A DNA stretch of 23,516 bases, taken from positions 1-23,516 of the forward strand of contig QMKT01000002.1 in the NCBI GenBank assembly GCA_003646505.1, read 5' to 3'. A program made the translations under genes and the position numbers. The DNA comes from Campylobacterota bacterium. GTDB lineage: Bacteria; Campylobacterota; Campylobacteria; Campylobacterales; Sulfurovaceae. Shown here piece by piece: positions 7,638 to 23,419 of this stretch. A model generated the notes under the pieces. The model saw only the letters and a list, made by a program, of their open reading frames with translations. It made no database searches and was not told where the DNA came from. Every line of letters begins with the position of its first letter. Position 1 is the stretch's first letter.

Positions 7638-8567
7638 ATGCCATTTGTCAAAGAAAAATTCAATATTCCAAAGAAGATGCCTGCATTTTTATTTATCATG
7701 CGTACATTCAATTTCACACAGGGGCAAGCACAGCGTGTATTGGCAAAAGGCAGATTACTGATCGGTGAGGAATCTATATTTAATACTGGTGAGTCCATAG
7801 AGGGTGATGTTGAAGTTGTCTATTTCAAGCCCTCATCAAAAGGTCATAGTCCACTCTTTCATAACAAGAACTTTATGGTCTACGAGAAGCATTCAGGTGT
7901 TTTAGTCCATCCCAATACCATGGCTACCCCATACTCTCTTTTAGATGAAATACGTACCATTGCAGGCGATAATGCCAATGCTGTGCATCGCATCGATATG
8001 GAAACTTCAGGACTCTTATTGGCAAGTAAGCATAAGAAAGCAGAGTCATATTTGAAGTGTTCATTTGAAGATAGAAGCATCACAAAATCTTACCTTGCCT
8101 GGGTAGATGGAAAGCTCGTAGAACCTTTCTCTTCTCATGAGTCTATCAAGATAAACAATGACTACAGTCAGACTAAACATAAAGTATTTATATCCAAGGA
8201 GGGCAAGGCATCACATACTGACTTCATCCCTTTAGAGTATGATCAAGACCTTGATGCTACACTTGTAGCCTGCTATCCACATACAGGAAGAACACATCAG
8301 ATACGAGTACATTTGTTTCACGTGAAACATCCCATTTTAGGTGACCCCATTTATGGTGCAAGCTATGAAGCAAGCAATGATTATCTGGAACTAACACAAA
8401 GCAAAGAAAATAGACTTATCCAGCATGGGGCACCAAGACTTATGCTCCATGCACAAAGTCTCAGTTTCATTTATGGTAACAAATTCCTGATAGAAAGTAG
8501 GGAGGATTTTAAAGGGATGAAGGACTTGATATATGCTAAAGATAAAAGGGTTTTCAATAAAAATTAA
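7638..8567 (+). CDS. RluA-family RNA pseudouridine synthase
   Basis: 309 residues. The enzyme isomerises specific uridines of rRNA or tRNA to pseudouridine. The N-terminal part (about 22-60, RTFNFTQGQAQRVLAKGRLLIGEE) resembles an S4 RNA-binding domain. The catalytic signature is AVHRIDMETSGLLLASK, with the nucleophilic Asp at residue 120 (HRID). GRTHQIRVHLFHVKHPILGDPIYG is the second conserved block of the family. The ATG is preceded by AGAGG about 10 bases upstream. It corresponds in position to the Campylobacter jejuni RluA-type gene beside purB; which uridine is modified cannot be said. A perfect parS sequence lies inside the gene, at the codons for LFHVKH. Confidence 0.92.
   Translation: MPFVKEKFNIPKKMPAFLFIMRTFNFTQGQAQRVLAKGRLLIGEESIFNTGESIEGDVEVVYFKPSSKGHSPLFHNKNFMVYEKHSGVLVHPNTMATPYSLLDEIRTIAGDNANAVHRIDMETSGLLLASKHKKAESYLKCSFEDRSITKSYLAWVDGKLVEPFSSHESIKINNDYSQTKHKVFISKEGKASHTDFIPLEYDQDLDATLVACYPHTGRTHQIRVHLFHVKHPILGDPIYGASYEASNDYLELTQSKENRLIQHGAPRLMLHAQSLSFIYGNKFLIESREDFKGMKDLIYAKDKRVFNKN
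8314..8329. other. parS: parS site (ParB-binding), perfect match, inside the RluA-family gene
   Basis: TGTTTCACGTGAAACA, a 16-bp perfect palindrome identical to the widely conserved chromosomal parS consensus bound by ParB/Spo0J. It lies within the RluA-family coding region. ParB loads here, spreads, and organises the origin region for segregation. Two further parS-type sites occur within 1.9 kb. Confidence 0.9.
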
Positions 8568-8692
8568 TCTATGACGCTTACGCTTTTTTCTATCTTATCG
8601 TAGTACAAAAAAGAAAAAGCAACTGGGAGGAAGAGTATCAAAAATAGACTACATTAAAATAAAATATACAAAGAGATATTCAATACACGTAA
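8568..8692. other. Short intergenic stretch downstream of the RluA-family gene
   Basis: AT-rich stretch between convergent genes. A loose pairing of GCTTTTTTC with GAAAAAGC (about 8590 and 8620) might act as a weak terminator. I see no gene here. Confidence 0.3.
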
Positions 8693-8708
8693 TGTTTCAC
8701 ATGAAACA
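8693..8708. other. parS: parS-like site, one mismatch
   Basis: TGTTTCACATGAAACA differs from the consensus at one central base (CACATG for CACGTG). The flanks extend the symmetry by one base on each side (8692-8709). It is intergenic, 5 bases beyond the stop of the 33-residue membrane protein gene, and lies between the two better sites at 8314 and 10163. Confidence 0.72.
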
Positions 8709-8713
8709 TTTAC

Positions 8714-8815
8714 CTACTTTTCATCATCCGAACGAGACTCAATAATCAAAAATCCTATACCAATAATAGCAACAACAATAATAAATCCTAACATAACCAA
8801 ATCAAGTGTACCCAT
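8714..8815 (-). CDS. Small single-pass membrane protein (33 residues), coupled to rlmN
   Basis: Unrecognised family. The minus-strand frame from ATG (complement of 8813-8815) to TAG encodes 33 residues: a short N-terminus (MGTLDLVM), a hydrophobic helix of about 20 residues (LGFIIVVAIIGIGFLII), then a charged tail (ESRSDDEK). This predicts one transmembrane segment with an acidic end. The last base of the rlmN TAA is the first base of this ATG (TAATG), and an AGAAGGAGAAG ribosome-binding site lies at the correct spacing inside the end of rlmN. Translation is therefore probably coupled to rlmN. The strong ribosome-binding site, the start/stop overlap and the clean helix make it a believable gene despite its size. 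Function unknown. Confidence 0.75.
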   Translation of the reverse strand: MGTLDLVMLGFIIVVAIIGIGFLIIESRSDDEK

Positions 8816-9894
8816 TATACTTCTCCTTCTAATTCTTGTTCACGAAGCTGACCACATGCAGCCGAGATATCTAATCCTTTAGATTCACGAATTGTACAAT
8901 GCAGGCCATGTGTTGTTAAGTACTCTTGAAATTTTTTCATGTCTTCTGTCGAAGGTCTTTTGAATTCTGTACCACCATAAGGATTAAAATAGATCAAGTT
9001 TACTTTTGCTTTAATACCGTCAAGCAAGGAAAGTAATTTCTTTGCTGCGGAGAGATCATCATTGATATCTTTGATAACAAGATACTCGAACATGACCCTC
9101 TTTCTATCATTGACAGGAAAGTTTTTTACAGCCGTAATAATAGAAGCAATATTGTATGCTTTGTTAATAGGCATCAACTGTTGTCGCAATTCATCATCTA
9201 CCGCATGGAGTGAGATAGCCAAGTTAATACCCAGCTCCATCTTTCCTAGTTTCTCAATCTTAGAGCTTAGTCCAGAAGTTGAGATAGTTTGTCTGTGTGT
9301 TGCTATTGCCATACCTTCTTCATCTGCAAATATCTTGACAGACTTTGCCACTTCAGGCAGGTTGTCAAGTGGCTCACCCATACCCATATATACAAGATTG
9401 ACACGGCGGTTGGCAGCAATGTCATTGTCCTTCTTTATCAAACGTACCTGTTCAACGATCTCACCCGCAGTAAGGTTTCGCATGAAACCACCCTTTGCAG
9501 TCAAACAAAAAGCACATCCTACCTTGCACCCTACTTGAGAAGAGATACAGACTGTATAACGCTCCTGATGCTTTACGGAACCATCTTTATGGTACTCCTT
9601 ATCACGCATAAGAAGTAGTACAGCTTCCACAGTATGTTTATCATGAAGTTCATACAGATATTTACGGCTGCCGTCTTTAGAGTTTTGTACCATCACTTGC
9701 TTTAAAGGTGCAACAGTATATTCTAGCTCTAGCTTTTCTCTCATCTCTTTTGGAAGATTTTTCATTGTAGCAAATGAGTCTGCATACTTATGATAGATCC
9801 AATGATATATCTGCTTTGCCCGAAAGCTTGGCTTGATGAGTTCACCTAATTCTTCTTTTGTTAGGTCTTGTATTATTTTCTTAGGACTCGACAT
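8815..9894 (-). CDS. rlmN: 23S rRNA (A2503-C2)/tRNA (A37-C2) methyltransferase RlmN
   Basis: 359 residues, normal for the family. RlmN is a radical-SAM enzyme that methylates C2 of adenosine 2503 in 23S rRNA and A37 in some tRNAs. The [4Fe-4S]/SAM motif CxxxCxxC is at Cys123, Cys127 and Cys130 ([11 protein letters not shown]). GMGEPLDN is the SAM-binding GGE-type segment. The C-terminal ISAACGQL contains the methyl-carrying Cys347, and Glu90 (TVEAVLL) matches the conserved active-site acid. The ATG is preceded by GAGAGG. It follows the PNP-family gene on the minus strand at a 22-base gap, and its stop overlaps the start of the small membrane protein gene. Confidence 0.96.
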
Positions 9895-19864: not shown

Positions 19865-20275
19865 TTACTTTAAGGTGCCAAGCGCACGCTTGGCACCTTC
19901 TGTATTTAAAGTCCCTGAAAAATATTCATTTTCAACATTATCAATAGACTGACTGATCTTCTCTTGCAGAACTGTGCCTCTCACTCTTTCTTGAGCAAAG
20001 ATCTTCATTTCTGAGAAATCAGGGAAAAGCATTAAAAATTCATCTTTTAATTTGGACTTATTCCATGCAGCCACCTGTACACTCGCAGAAGCACCCGTCA
20101 TATCAAGTATCTCACGACCTATACTGTCTGCACTTTGATAGGCATCATATTTATGTTTTTCTGTATATTCACTATTTTGAAGGCTATCATCTTCCTGAAG
20201 CTCTCCAACAAAGTTGGTGACAAAATAAAGAAATCCAATACCTATTGCAATGAACATCATAAAACTCTTATCCAT
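19865..20275 (-). CDS. Small membrane-anchored protein of unknown function
   Basis: 136 residues, family not recognised. An N-terminal transmembrane helix (about 5-24, FMMFIAIGIGFLYFVTNFVG) is followed by an acidic, helical, soluble part. It contains AWNKSKLKDEFLMLFPDFSEMKIFAQERVRG and ends in GAKRALGTLK. No catalytic motif or cysteine pair is seen. AGGA lies about 7 bases before the ATG on the minus strand. The gene is convergent with the OmpA-like gene with only 5 bases between stops. Its last codons form a perfect 13-bp palindrome that looks like the terminator of the opposite gene. I infer a chromosomal conserved hypothetical protein; codon use looks like the neighbours. Confidence 0.75.
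   Translation of the reverse strand: MDKSFMMFIAIGIGFLYFVTNFVGELQEDDSLQNSEYTEKHKYDAYQSADSIGREILDMTGASASVQVAAWNKSKLKDEFLMLFPDFSEMKIFAQERVRGTVLQEKISQSIDNVENEYFSGTLNTEGAKRALGTLK
19872..19899. terminator. 13-bp perfect hairpin inside the end of the convergent gene
   Basis: AAGGTGCCAAGCG, CA, CGCTTGGCACCTT: thirteen perfect pairs, the strongest hairpin in the window. It starts 13 bases after the OmpA-like stop and is followed by CTGTATTT on the plus strand. It also codes for the C-terminal residues of the minus-strand gene. Probably a terminator for the plus strand. Confidence 0.7.
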
Positions 20276-20586: not shown

Positions 20587-21783
20587 TTGGATTTTACACC
20601 TCTGTTACCCAACGATAATCAAGGTAATATTGATACCGAACTACTCTCAATGGCAGAGAAACTTTGTATTAAAAGTGCCTCACTTTCTGGTTCTCATGCT
20701 CCACAAGTACTTTATGGAATCAAAGAGTTACTTAGAAAGGTCAATAGCTATTACTCCAATCAAATTGAATCAGAGGGTACTCACCCCATAGATATAGATA
20801 AGGCTACACGGCAAGAGTTTTCAAGTGATTCAAAAGAAAAACAACTACAACAGCTTTCACTTGTTCACATAGAAGTCCAAAAATATGTAGAGAGCTATTT
20901 CACAGAAGGACAAACACCTTATAGTATGGATTTTGTTTTAGATGTACATCGTGAGCTTTATTCACATCCTGATATGGCTCATTTTTTACAGATTGAAGAT
21001 AAAGAAAATCATAAAACTATAAATATGAAACCAGGGAAATTAAGAGACAGTAACGTGCGTGTAGGACAACATATAGCTCCTGACTATACGGAACTATCAC
21101 ACTTCTTTAACAAATATGAGCTACTTTACAAAATACCAAATTATGCTACACAGGCGAAACAGGTCATCTTTGCTTTAGCTTCACACCATAGACTGATGTG
21201 GATACACCCTTTTCTTGATGGTAATGGTAGAACAGCTAGACTCATACTCGATGGTATTTTCTCTAATATGTCATTAGAAGGATATGGACTTTGGAATGCA
21301 TCAAGAGGACTCTCTAGGCGTTCGGAGGATTATAAACGCTACCTAGCCCTTGCAGACATGGTAAGACAAGGTGATTTAGATGGAAGAGGAGCACTCTCTA
21401 CCAAGGCATTTATCTCTTACATCAAATTTATGCTAGAAATTGCCATAGATCAAGTGGACTTTATGAATAAAAACCTAAAGATGCACTCTTTGCATGAACG
21501 GATAGAGAGCTATGTACGTCTCTCTAAAGAAAGTCTATTTGACACAAAGCCTCTTCCTAAATATAGTGAGTTACTTTTTAAAGAGTTACTTATGGTAGGT
21601 GAAGTGCAAAGAGGTAAGGTAATGGATATTATACATACAAAAGATAGGACAGCAACAACGCTCATAAAAGAGTTGATACAAATGGACTTTTTAGAATCAG
21701 ACACACCTAAAAGTGCAATACGTCTAAAATTTAATGCACACTTTGCATCCTATATTTTCCCTGATCTTATACCACAAAAATAA
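20587..21783 (+). CDS. Fic-family protein AMP-transferase
   Basis: 398 residues. Fic enzymes usually transfer AMP from ATP to target hydroxyls. The catalytic motif HPFLDGNGRTAR is complete (His207 to Arg215), preceded by the hydrophobic helix FALASHHRLMWI. The N-terminal part carries YYSNQIESEGTHP (55-67), which matches the inhibitory helix SxxxE(G/N) of class II Fic proteins, with Ser62 where Gly or Asn is expected; the inhibitory Glu61 is present. The C-terminal 60 residues look like a winged helix (GKVMDIIHTKDRTATTLIKEL). The start is TTG, chosen because AGGAG lies 6 bases upstream and the next ATG (22 codons in) has no ribosome-binding site. No antitoxin-type partner is beside it. It lies just outside the tRNA-Leu element and is probably accessory DNA. 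Target unknown. Confidence 0.9.
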   Translation: MDFTPLLPNDNQGNIDTELLSMAEKLCIKSASLSGSHAPQVLYGIKELLRKVNSYYSNQIESEGTHPIDIDKATRQEFSSDSKEKQLQQLSLVHIEVQKYVESYFTEGQTPYSMDFVLDVHRELYSHPDMAHFLQIEDKENHKTINMKPGKLRDSNVRVGQHIAPDYTELSHFFNKYELLYKIPNYATQAKQVIFALASHHRLMWIHPFLDGNGRTARLILDGIFSNMSLEGYGLWNASRGLSRRSEDYKRYLALADMVRQGDLDGRGALSTKAFISYIKFMLEIAIDQVDFMNKNLKMHSLHERIESYVRLSKESLFDTKPLPKYSELLFKELLMVGEVQRGKVMDIIHTKDRTATTLIKELIQMDFLESDTPKSAIRLKFNAHFASYIFPDLIPQK

Positions 21784-21891
21784 AGAGTTGTAAATTAGTT
21801 ATGAGGTTTTGGTTACCAATCGTAAACTAGTGAAAGCTTAAAATAATGATTAAAGTTCGATGTAGACATTGTTAGTGAGGATTATATAAAA

Positions 21892-21919
21892 GTAGCTGGT
21901 GCGGATGAGAGGACTCGAA
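21892..21919 (-). repeat. att: Left attachment repeat: copy of the tRNA-Leu 3' end
   Basis: 28 bases identical to 23330-23357, in the same orientation. On the minus strand it reads from the TTCGA of the T-loop through the acceptor arm and CCA to five bases beyond (GCTAC). The remainder of the tRNA is absent, so this is a fragment, as expected at the far end of an element integrated in a tRNA gene. Confidence 0.88.
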
Positions 21920-22041
21920 GCCTAAAATTTAAACCCCGTGAAAGCCCGCTACATAGGGATTTGCGAGGATTTAATCCGTCAAAATAGATCAAAATATTCC
22001 GTTTTACAAGCTTGGCAGCAGAAAATGAACCCCCTTAAACT

Positions 22042-22050
22042 GGGGGGGGG
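22042..22050 (+). repeat. Poly-G tract (G9)
   Basis: Nine consecutive G, preceded by CCCCC ten bases upstream, with which it can pair (CCCCC, TTAAACT, GGGGG). G tracts of this length are commonly phase-variable in Campylobacterota. Here it is intergenic, about 55 bases beyond the nucleotidyltransferase stop. Confidence 0.7.
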
Positions 22051-22060
22051 CTGTAGACGG

Positions 22061-22096
22061 TTAGTATATCACTTAGTATATCAGTTGGTATATCAC
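22061..22096. repeat. Three tandem 12-bp repeats
   Basis: TTAGTATATCAC (22061-22072), TTAGTATATCAG (22073-22084) and TTGGTATATCAC (22085-22096). Each copy differs by at most two bases. They are followed by ACCTATATT (22095-22103), a half-site of the operator in front of the winged-helix gene at the other end of the operon. Iteron-like protein binding or recombinase arm sites are possible. Confidence 0.8.
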
Positions 22097-22105
22097 CTAT
22101 ATTGA

Positions 22106-22642
22106 CTACAAATCCCCTATTCTTTGCTTGAAAATATTGAACTTATCCATCTCCTGTTCCTTCTGCGACCACTGCTCTATAGACGCAAGATCAAATCTGT
22201 TTTCCTCTGCAACCCAAACAGCCTGTTCCAGACTTTGAGGGTCATCCCAATGGTAATATGCTGCCAATCTATCTTTGATACAATCAGTAGGAGTCAATAG
22301 CCTGAGTATGCCTGTCTCTTCTTCCAGTGTAGCAATATCATCTACAGGAGCATCACCTACTCCAAGAGGTCCACGTGGGAACTCAATGAACCACTCCGTA
22401 TCATCATGTACAAAGTAACGATTATGCTCTTTAAAGCCCATATCCAACATTACTTTTTTGATGAGTGTATGTCCTCCATTAAACCTATCTATAAGATCAA
22501 TATCATCAGAGGTATATTTACCCTGTGAGTATATCTGCACACAAGAACCACCAGAGAGAACGGTCTCTATATTGTTCTCTCCCAGTTTGCTACACACATA
22601 AGCAGCCAACTCTTCCATACTCATCTGAGAAACAGGCTTCAT
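22106..22642 (-). CDS. Nucleotidyltransferase-fold protein (AbiEii/DUF6036-like), candidate toxin
   Basis: 178 residues. The polymerase-beta-like nucleotidyltransferase signature is visible: TVLSGGSCVQIYSQGKYTSD then DIDLID, giving GGS (31-33) and the metal-binding DxD (Asp47, Asp49). A possible third acid is Glu87 (WFIEFPRG). The downstream block LTPTDCIKDRLAAYYHWDDP (with QSLEQA following, about 116-141) recurs in small nucleotidyltransferases of the AbiEii/MenT and DUF6036 type as I know them. It is the second gene of an operon: its ATG overlaps the winged-helix stop by ATGA. A regulator plus nucleotidyltransferase pair on a small tRNA-borne element points to toxin-antitoxin or defence function, with transfer of nucleotides to a tRNA or protein as a possible activity. 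That function is inference. Confidence 0.75.
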   Translation of the reverse strand: MKPVSQMSMEELAAYVCSKLGENNIETVLSGGSCVQIYSQGKYTSDDIDLIDRFNGGHTLIKKVMLDMGFKEHNRYFVHDDTEWFIEFPRGPLGVGDAPVDDIATLEEETGILRLLTPTDCIKDRLAAYYHWDDPQSLEQAVWVAEENRFDLASIEQWSQKEQEMDKFNIFKQRIGDL

Positions 22643-22968
22643 AATGGCTTCCCTGCTCTTCTTGGACGCTTACGACCCATGGTAAGACGTTCTATCTCAT
22701 CAGGATCATAATACTCTCTAGCTCTCTCCAGTAGTGCTTTCAATTCATTCAAGAACGCATAACGTGGGCTAAAGACAAAGAGTCTAGTTCTTCCTACATT
22801 TTTACTTACCAGAACACCACCAAGCTCCAACTTCTCCAGTTGCTTTTGGATAGGGTCAAGGCTTGTATCATAAAAGTCTGCTATCTCTTTGGCATACCCG
22901 TCACCATTTGCAAGGATAAATTGCAGTACACGTTCTCTATTCTTTGATCCGAATATAGCCTCTAACAT
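22639..22968 (-). CDS. Winged helix-turn-helix regulator, candidate antitoxin/autorepressor
   Basis: 109 residues from the ATG at 22968. I chose this over the in-frame GTG at 22983 because GGAG lies 5 bases before the ATG, while the GTG has no clear ribosome-binding site. The start LEAIFGSKNRERVLQFILAN, then GYAKEIADFYDTSLDPIQKQLEKL (recognition helix region, about 28-52) and GGVLVSKNVGRTRLFVFSPRY (wing) are typical of ArsR/MarR-type winged helices. The C-terminus is basic (GRKRPRRAGK). It precedes the nucleotidyltransferase gene with an ATGA overlap, and overlapping palindromes cover its promoter, so autoregulation is likely. No metal-binding cysteines are present, which argues against a metal-sensing ArsR. 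Confidence 0.82.
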   Translation of the reverse strand: MLEAIFGSKNRERVLQFILANGDGYAKEIADFYDTSLDPIQKQLEKLELGGVLVSKNVGRTRLFVFSPRYAFLNELKALLERAREYYDPDEIERLTMGRKRPRRAGKPL

Positions 22969-23002
22969 CCTTACTCCATTCACCTATAAAATAGTTTTAA
23001 TT

Positions 23003-23037
23003 ACCTATATTATAGGTTATATAACCTACATTGTCAA
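23003..23037 (-). promoter_or_regulatory. Perfect consensus promoter with overlapping palindromic operators
   Basis: On the minus strand: TTGACA (complement of 23032-23037), exactly 17 bases, then TATAAT (complement of 23009-23014). Two palindromes overlap it: ACCTATA-T-TATAGGT (23003-23017), which covers the -10, and TAGGTTATATAACCTA (23013-23028), which fills the spacer. A further half-site ACCTATA lies at 22982-22988. The expected binder is the winged-helix protein. Confidence 0.8.
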
Positions 23038-23039
23038 GA

Positions 23040-23055
23040 GGTGGAACTTTCCACC
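23040..23055. promoter_or_regulatory. Perfect inverted repeat upstream of the -35 box
   Basis: GGTGGAA-CT-TTCCACC, seven pairs, three bases upstream of the TTGACA. It is unrelated in sequence to the downstream operators, and lies between the divergent operon and the 24-residue peptide gene. It could be a second protein-binding site or a leader hairpin. Confidence 0.5.
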
Positions 23056-23190
23056 AAAAATAGGGTATATATATGAGGGAGTATTGTCTTACACTTCCCA
23101 CAAACTAACCCTCTCATGCCATAACCACAACTTACCATTCCCACTGTCGTTATCGTATACATTCATATTCCCATTAAAGGAGGCACATAT

Positions 23191-23265
23191 ATGCCATGGA
23201 ATCAAATCCTATCCATCGCCTTGGTCGTAATCACCACCATCGCCAACGAATTACACCATAGGTAA
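23191..23265 (+). CDS. 24-residue hydrophobic peptide, possible type I toxin-like
   Basis: The frame starts at ATG 23191, preceded by AAAGGAGG (about 23177-23184), one of the best Shine-Dalgarno sequences in the window, with 6-7 bases spacing. The peptide begins MPWNQ, has one hydrophobic helix (ILSIALVVITTIA) and ends in ELHHR. The size, single helix and charged end resemble small membrane toxins of type I systems, but no family is recognised. Upstream (23073-23116) ATGAGGGAG-like and CCCTCTCAT arms could fold a leader stem, a feature of such mRNAs. A T-rich stretch follows the stop. It is divergent from the winged-helix operon and lies inside the tRNA-Leu element. Chance cannot be ruled out for so short a frame. 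Confidence 0.5.
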   Translation: MPWNQILSIALVVITTIANELHHR

Positions 23266-23329
23266 TTATTTATTTATTTTTTAATGATTTTTTGTTGATT
23301 TAAAAGTCTTTGAAAGTCCCAGTATATGG

Positions 23330-23357
23330 GTAGCTGGTGCGGATGAGAGGACTCGAA
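23330..23357 (-). repeat. att: Right attachment repeat at the tRNA-Leu 3' end
   Basis: 28 bases identical to 21892-21919. It comprises part of the T-arm, the acceptor 3' strand and CCA of the tRNA-Leu gene, plus five bases beyond. Immediately downstream on the minus strand is a small CCCATATACTGGG hairpin (23318-23330) that may end tRNA transcription. Confidence 0.88.
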
Positions 23358-23419
23358 CCTCCACGCCGTAAAGCACCAGATCCTAAGTCTGGCGTGTATA
23401 CCAATTTCACCACATCCGC
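23335..23419 (-). tRNA. tRNA-Leu (anticodon UAG)
   Basis: On the minus strand it begins GCGGATG and ends CATCCGC-A-CCA, a perfect 7-bp acceptor stem with encoded CCA. The anticodon arm CCAGA-CTTAGGA-TCTGG gives anticodon UAG. The long variable arm (GTGCTTTACGGCGT) marks a class II leucine tRNA. TTCGA is in the T-loop. The 3' end doubles as the attachment site of the adjacent element and remains intact. Confidence 0.96.

Follow-up and report, generated by a model that had tools for sequence, protein, structure and literature searches.

The window, a 23516-bp stretch that makes up an entire contig (C2) of a Sulfurovum draft genome (1.46 Mb in 142 contigs, 80% complete), contains a 1438-bp segment that is an insertion into the gene for tRNA-Leu(UAG). 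The segment lies between two copies of a 28-bp repeat, and its main content is an operon for a winged helix-turn-helix (wHTH) protein and a nucleotidyltransferase (NTase). With a probability of about 0.72, we interpret it as a non-autonomous element, similar to a cis-mobilizable element (CIME), that was placed by a tyrosine integrase and carries a probable toxin-antitoxin pair as cargo.

An insertion at tRNA-Leu(UAG)

The original prediction described 28-bp perfect direct repeats, one of them the 3' end of an intact tRNA-Leu(UAG), and this description was borne out. The distal attachment (att) repeat (21892-21919) and the tRNA-side att repeat (23330-23357), neither of which is assigned a strand, are both exact copies of GTAGCTGGTGCGGATGAGAGGACTCGAA that start 1438 bp apart, and no match to this sequence, with 3 mismatches allowed, arose in any of 100 shuffles. 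The target tRNA gene (23335-23419, minus strand) was identified by ARAGORN and Rfam, and its anticodon, TAG, was read from the same tRNA-Leu in relatives, where it is the last gene of a Pro-His-Arg-Arg-Leu tRNA cluster. The tRNA-side repeat consists of the final 23 bases of the tRNA and 5 bases past its end, extending 5 bases beyond the core common to other elements at tRNA-Leu(UAG), which is the last 23-24 tRNA bases. A truncated tRNA at the contig end (23453-23516; Rfam RF00005) matches in position the tRNA-Arg that neighbours tRNA-Leu in relatives.

The tRNA-Leu locus was viewed in 36 genomes, chosen from the 67 of 78 genus genomes with a match (G056 gave no tRNA match). Single-copy sites, which were proposed beforehand as the decisive comparison, are present in ten of these relatives (G039, G037, G004, G001, G061, G015, G042, G016, G063, and G045): a conserved chromosomal gene, found in the window at 19865-20275 (minus strand), lies 75-117 bp from tRNA-Leu, and there is no second core copy. 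In five genomes (G011, G017, G054, G010, and G002), a second core copy lies at a distance of 3.9-13.1 kb and has a tyrosine integrase beside it, and G074 has a distal copy and an integrase on a separate contig; the remaining loci viewed hold other DNA without a second copy, or their sequence ends too early. In the filled/empty pair G002 and G004, the 110 bases past the G002 distal copy are the bases past the G004 tRNA. The best empty junction for the window is that of G032. Its post-tRNA sequence is identical to the sequence beyond the left repeat at 51 of 60 positions (counted over the 60 bases that follow the CCA of the repeat), compared with 34 of 72 for the element side; shuffles reached at most 43. 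Nine other genomes were less similar in this comparison, ranging from 29/84 to 46/62.

Between the repeats, the predicted wHTH/NTase operon, 24-residue open reading frame (ORF), and short repeats were all recovered, together with a 113-amino-acid ORF (22889-23230, plus strand) that overlaps the wHTH gene on the opposite strand. The predicted absence of an integrase also held, in that no PF00589 match was detected on contig C2 at E 1e-3, which covers any decayed integrase that this profile would find within the element. The genome as a whole has three PF00589 matches, two of them XerC/D-like (contigs C13 and C108) and one an integron-integrase-like end (contig C99).

The operon and its relatives

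Both operon genes lie on the minus strand, in the reading direction of the tRNA, and overlap by 4 bp. The ORF of the wHTH protein, the probable antitoxin and autoregulator, opens at GTG 22983, but its conservation begins at MLEAIF, so the probable start is ATG 22968 (gene at 22639-22968). The second gene (22106-22642) encodes the 178-amino-acid NTase, the probable toxin. In every one of 21 sequences, the NTase match has a wHTH match immediately upstream of it. The wHTH protein gave below-cut-off matches to DUF7342 and ArsR-type families and a match to the PADLOC model PDC-M05A (E 7e-8). Residues D47, D49, and E87 of the NTase are invariant in 16 aligned sequences, an alignment that omits the sequences of 10 of 26 genomes as broken, partial, or not chosen. 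By fold comparison, the best Z score was to MenT1, with ANT(2'')-Ia close behind and LnuA also among the best. No named AbiEii or MenT model matched the NTase in the scanned libraries, whose MenT content was not established; the 16 members compared with Pfam at E<=10 matched only DUF2204 and a few families at weak E-values, with no AbiEii; and neither PADLOC, NCBIfam, nor, by sequence, any chain among solved structures gave a match. The NTase is a widespread, if unnamed, protein, with 5213 proteins at E<=0.001 among 7999 scored candidates.

A promoter read by eye (23009-23037, minus strand) comprises TTGACA (23032-23037) and TATAAT (23009-23014) separated by 17 bp, and it is overlapped upstream of the wHTH gene by the palindrome TAGGTTATATAACCTA (23013-23028), a candidate operator. 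Similar promoter/palindrome sequence precedes the wHTH gene in G004, G023, G003, and L139; in G047 the promoter is kept and the palindrome is not, and L154, L155, L158, and G181 have different sequence there. The operon is most likely a toxin-antitoxin pair of the MenAT/AbiE kind. It shares with those systems the two-gene arrangement of a winged-helix protein and an NTase; the NTase fold came out nearest MenT1, closely followed by ANT(2'')-Ia. Unlike them, it has a short, single-domain wHTH protein, and sequence searches did not place its NTase in the AbiEii family. The earlier label of addiction or defence module is a reading of fold, gene order, and distribution.

The NTase occurs in 26 of 200 genomes, its own included, and several copies are broken. 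Scanning two peptide patterns over genomes of 84,980 species returned 83 relatives, of which 80 were kept, giving 81 operon loci with the window. The operon did turn up again at other tRNA loci and next to integrases, as the original prediction had anticipated. Three further integrase-free units were recognised: in G047 (L080/L133) at tRNA-Phe, with a 25-bp exact repeat and a length of 1228 bp; in Helicobacteraceae GLR69 (L154) at tRNA-Leu(CAA), with a 13-bp repeat and a length of ~1.47 kb; and in Sulfurospirillum bin10080 (L139) at the gene for tmRNA, with a repeat matching by eye at 37 of 39 bases and a length of ~1.49 kb. For the G047 unit, G053 provides a precise empty site, since query positions 1-477 and 1677-2182 adjoin there with a 30-base overlap and therefore leave one repeat copy. 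G049 also lacks the G047 insert, and G040 has the same insertion without the distal copy. A similar comparison of L154 with 60 genomes yielded no informative junction, the sequences being too diverged.

Of 13 loci with a tRNA gene within 3 kb, 12 have its 3' end pointing at the operon, and only the tRNA-SeC of L155 does not; with L133 and L134, which share one insertion, counted once, the proportion is 11 of 12 (P=0.003). Exact repeats of at least 20 bp within 500 bp on both sides were found at 5 of 64 loci (the window, L133, L158, L168, and L184), compared with a frequency of 21 in 3044 for random placements within these loci, placements that are not fully independent; 17 of the 81 loci lacked enough flank and were omitted. 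Against these associations, 58 of the 81 loci lack both a tRNA gene within 3 kb and a flanking repeat. Nine tRNA-adjacent operons (L134, L136, L153, L164, L178, L183, L185, L194, and L195) showed no convincing distal core copy and were not counted as units; the L136 sequence ends 523 bp past the operon. Repeat-flanked operons away from RNA genes were seen in G004, G181, G023, and G003, with repeats that are short, distant, or imperfect.

A tree built from 68 of the 81 NTases (13 omitted for stops, length, or ambiguity) places the window sequence as sister to the G047 and G040 sequences (support 98/96), with those of L139 and L154 elsewhere. Because these sister NTases sit in different tRNA genes, related operons have changed their target gene, either through exchange of arms or through repeated capture. 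The NTase was not found in phage records, and IMG/VR held two distant matches.

The operon also travels with integrases. A local integrase profile matched in 7 of the 81 loci, the nearest integrase-bearing form seen being that of Sulfurospirillaceae STD2_19 (L155), where wHTH, NTase, and a 386-amino-acid integrase follow one another within a few bases and a 57-bp stretch nearby resembles the 3' part of tRNA-Leu(UAG). In L163, a 385-amino-acid integrase lies directly upstream of the operon; in G036 (L178), the end of a decayed integrase converges toward the operon, at a site 1.3 kb from tRNA-Ser; and distances of 2.0 and 2.5 kb separate the integrase from the operon in L152 and L202. The matches in L133 and L134, one and the same locus, are to an Xer-sized protein of 280-283 amino acids, 4-5 kb off, which is probably not part of the unit. 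Given this linkage elsewhere, a source exists for integrase-free derivatives.

Origin and mobility of the element

Integrase-bearing elements at tRNA-Leu(UAG) contain period-12 direct repeats at +71/+83 from the core start and again 138-151 bp before the distal core end. The motif is GGGGATAC in L059 and L072, GGTAACA in L065, GGTAACA with one GGTTACA in L073, and GGTTACA in L071, which has a single exact copy on the tRNA side. Their position and spacing suggest that these repeats act as arm-type sites. The L154 unit carries AGGTAACA twice per arm, in the other orientation to the tRNA than these repeats and with other spacings, of 23 and 11 bp. Within the 3.0-Mb genome, this exact spaced pair is found twice, each time inside the unit, and a reversed control not at all; the same exact pattern, used as the mark of a helper, had no match in that genome outside the unit. 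In the window, three TGATATACYAA repeats with a 12-bp period (22060-22099, minus strand) are present in the distal arm only, ~174-198 bp from the core end. They are candidate arm-type sites or a mini-satellite, and may be a functionless tandem duplication; the corresponding pair pattern (<=2 mismatches), which might have revealed a helper, was absent from the other 77 genus genomes. The G047 distal arm contains TGTACG three times by eye, and the arms of L158, L168, and L184 have no spaced motif like those of the other units. The distal arm of the window (21920-22105, of which 21920-22059 lies outside the triplet) gave no match against 227 loci at E<=0.01, and its minus strand no RNA fold above shuffles (z 0.35); the tRNA-side arm gave two weak matches (E 7e-4 and 0.007).

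We propose that a tyrosine integrase would have recombined the element into the 3' end of tRNA-Leu(UAG), forming attL and attR. Either an integrase-bearing parent may have lost everything except the operon and the att ends, or the operon may have been captured between att arms. The wHTH protein, presumed to be autoregulating, would restrain the NTase, which probably transfers nucleotides to RNA, and the unit would persist if the operon were costly to lose.

The notion that the repeat pair arose by chance or by local duplication, with no integration at all, is very improbable in the face of the shuffles, the G032 junction, and the precise empty site of the sister unit in G047. We give an even chance to the segment being a plain remnant, that is, a large island worn down by deletion to the operon and its att repeats and immobile since. 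The definition and formation route of CIMEs in PMC5704250 would fit such decay, as would the degraded integrase that adjoins the tRNA-Ser copy of the operon in G036, the missing distal repeat in G040, and the several broken operon copies; against it, the four units are of similarly small size, their operons are intact, and two of them have exact repeats, which is more than random decay would be expected to give, and beyond the 24-residue ORF no remnant genes were recognised in the window unit. An alternative is an active miniature element that is still excised and integrated by integrases encoded on co-resident elements whose core and arm sites match its own. Such movement in trans is possible, and the reading draws on the range of 1.23-1.49 kb for four units at four RNA genes, the exact repeats in the window and G047, and the sister operons (98/96) in tRNA-Leu and tRNA-Phe. 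It draws also on the L154 unit, in which both arms keep AGGTAACA, a motif that recurs as GGTAACA in the other orientation in integrase-bearing Sulfurovum elements, and whose genome has 18 integrase-domain matches. We nonetheless consider it doubtful, as matching arm sites were not found elsewhere in the genus of the window or in the L154 genome, and the arms of the four units are, by eye, unlike each other. Equally tentative is its extension to a whole family of miniature one-operon toxin-antitoxin elements, moved in trans as a tyrosine-integrase counterpart of miniature inverted-repeat transposable elements (MITEs) and kept by addiction rather than by copy number; such a family would change its target (tRNA-Leu, tRNA-Phe, tmRNA) by swapping att arms.

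A separate alternative concerns the cargo, which might pair a repressor with an NTase acting on, for instance, a drug or another small molecule. ANT(2'')-Ia and LnuA among the best fold matches, and the weak ArsR-type match of the wHTH protein, are in keeping with this. The constant two-gene order with overlap or near-overlap, the patchy distribution, the plasmid and island locations, and the best Z score to MenT1 all favour the toxin-antitoxin interpretation instead, and we regard the small-molecule enzyme as unlikely.

Among known systems, the CIME is the closest parallel for our preferred reading of a non-autonomous, integrase-placed element. As characterised in PMC5704250, CIMEs are att-flanked, lack integrase and transfer genes, and lie in tandem with another unit at one tRNA. 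The window unit likewise keeps attL and attR (exact 28-bp repeats with an empty junction) and has no PF00589 match on its contig and only the ORFs listed above between its repeats, relaxases not having been searched by profile. Unlike a CIME, it is only ~1.4 kb long with a single operon, and units of this kind built on related operons exist at three further RNA genes. The Dehalococcoides ssrA islands, according to PMC3146451, share a direct repeat at the 3' end of an RNA gene, tandem units, and a lack of the integration module in 15 of 31 cases, but their recombinases are of the serine type and rdhA is among the genes they carry; the present units hold a single operon at sites used by tyrosine integrases. 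MITEs and clusters of attC sites lacking integron integrases (CALINs) likewise have no enzyme of their own and are, or could be, mobilised in trans, the former by transposases and the latter by integron integrases (PMC11389934); the present units have tRNA-type att sites. Unlike phage satellites of the phage-inducible chromosomal island (PICI) type, the window unit has no integrase, packaging, or replication genes between its repeats. No report on such units in Sulfurovum was found in the open-access literature, a coverage that excludes most subscription journals.

Two features are unusual here, the minimal size and the fact that such units recur at four RNA genes. An integrase is the usual sign by which a genomic island is spotted, and integrase-free units this small easily escape notice, yet they bring probable toxin-antitoxin genes to the tRNA hotspots that islands also use. 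The four units have defined ends and one of them has a precise empty site, which opens to testing whether a toxin-antitoxin operon by itself suffices as a passenger for integrases acting in trans or is just what remains of an island after decay.

A probable adjoining Fic unit and further observations

Beyond the left repeat, between it and the chromosomal gene, lies a gene for a 398-amino-acid Fic protein (20587-21783, plus strand; PF02661), the probable cargo of a second unit. At E<=1e-40, this Fic protein is found in 10 of the 78 genus genomes, its own included. The flank past the distal repeat (21784-21891, no strand assigned) is a candidate tRNA-side arm of that second, older unit. It resembles the post-tRNA-Leu flank of G032 and, less closely, those of G057 and G043, and it contains spaced repeats (GCTACCCTATTGCTACC in G057) that look like integrase arm sites. 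In G032, the similar flank adjoins the tRNA and a different Fic-like ORF, recognised by eye, occupies the same place; in G057 and G043 (L099 and L112), the same kind of flank at tRNA-Leu(UAG) is followed by a different NTase-like ORF, and in G059 by type I restriction-like ORFs, both again by eye. A Fic gene 90% identical to that of the window lies in G044 (L120, 562-2124) ~280 bp downstream of tRNA-Ser(GGA), with GGCAACCTATTGGTAACG between them as spaced, arm-like repeats and no distal tRNA-Ser copy within 3.6 kb. In G066, the Fic gene is 91% identical and the junction to the chromosomal gene is kept (90% over 91 bp); the wHTH/NTase operon of that genome is beside tRNA-Asn. On the basis of these flank and junction comparisons, the window probably holds two integrase-free units in tandem, formed by accretion, and the 1.44-kb unit would have landed beside the older Fic-carrying unit at the same tRNA. 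No third copy of the core was found in the stretch from the Fic gene to the chromosomal gene, and the outer repeat of the second unit is not detectable.

The 24-amino-acid ORF (23191-23265, plus strand) lies between the tRNA and the operon, encodes a hydrophobic peptide, and is preceded by a GGAGG ribosome-binding site. Among 175 family genomes it has two homologues at 42% identity, both in G003 and both with GGAGG, and one further partial, weak match in G120. One of the G003 copies lies 267 bp downstream of tRNA-Ser(UGA), and the other ~1.5 kb downstream of tRNA-Met; the surrounding regions (L232 and L233, reverse strand) hold several ORFs that look toxin-antitoxin-like, by eye RelE-, MazF-, AbiEii-, and Fic-like.

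Several other arrangements were noted. At L158, L168, and L184, the NTase operon is flanked by exact repeats (25, 32, and 31 bp, respectively), none of which is a tRNA end. In G023 (L085, 7820-10500), the operon and a MazEF-like pair, recognised by eye, lie between copies of a repeated gene 3' end (34 bp exact, longer if imperfect matches are included), resembling an array of toxin-antitoxin modules on duplicated gene ends. In G181 (L094, oriented 8440-9650), an imperfect duplication of ~80 bp of a gene 3' end, seen by eye, flanks the operon as if an element had restored its target gene. The integron-integrase-like match in the genome of the window is a 62-amino-acid C-terminal end at the edge of contig C99 (L128, 7171-7358) and may mark a chromosomal integron. 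Finally, the 3.9-13-kb elements at tRNA-Leu(UAG) (L059, L065, L071, L072, and L073) encode an integrase and small helix-turn-helix proteins, some with terminase-like ORFs by eye, and are possible phage satellites of Sulfurovum.

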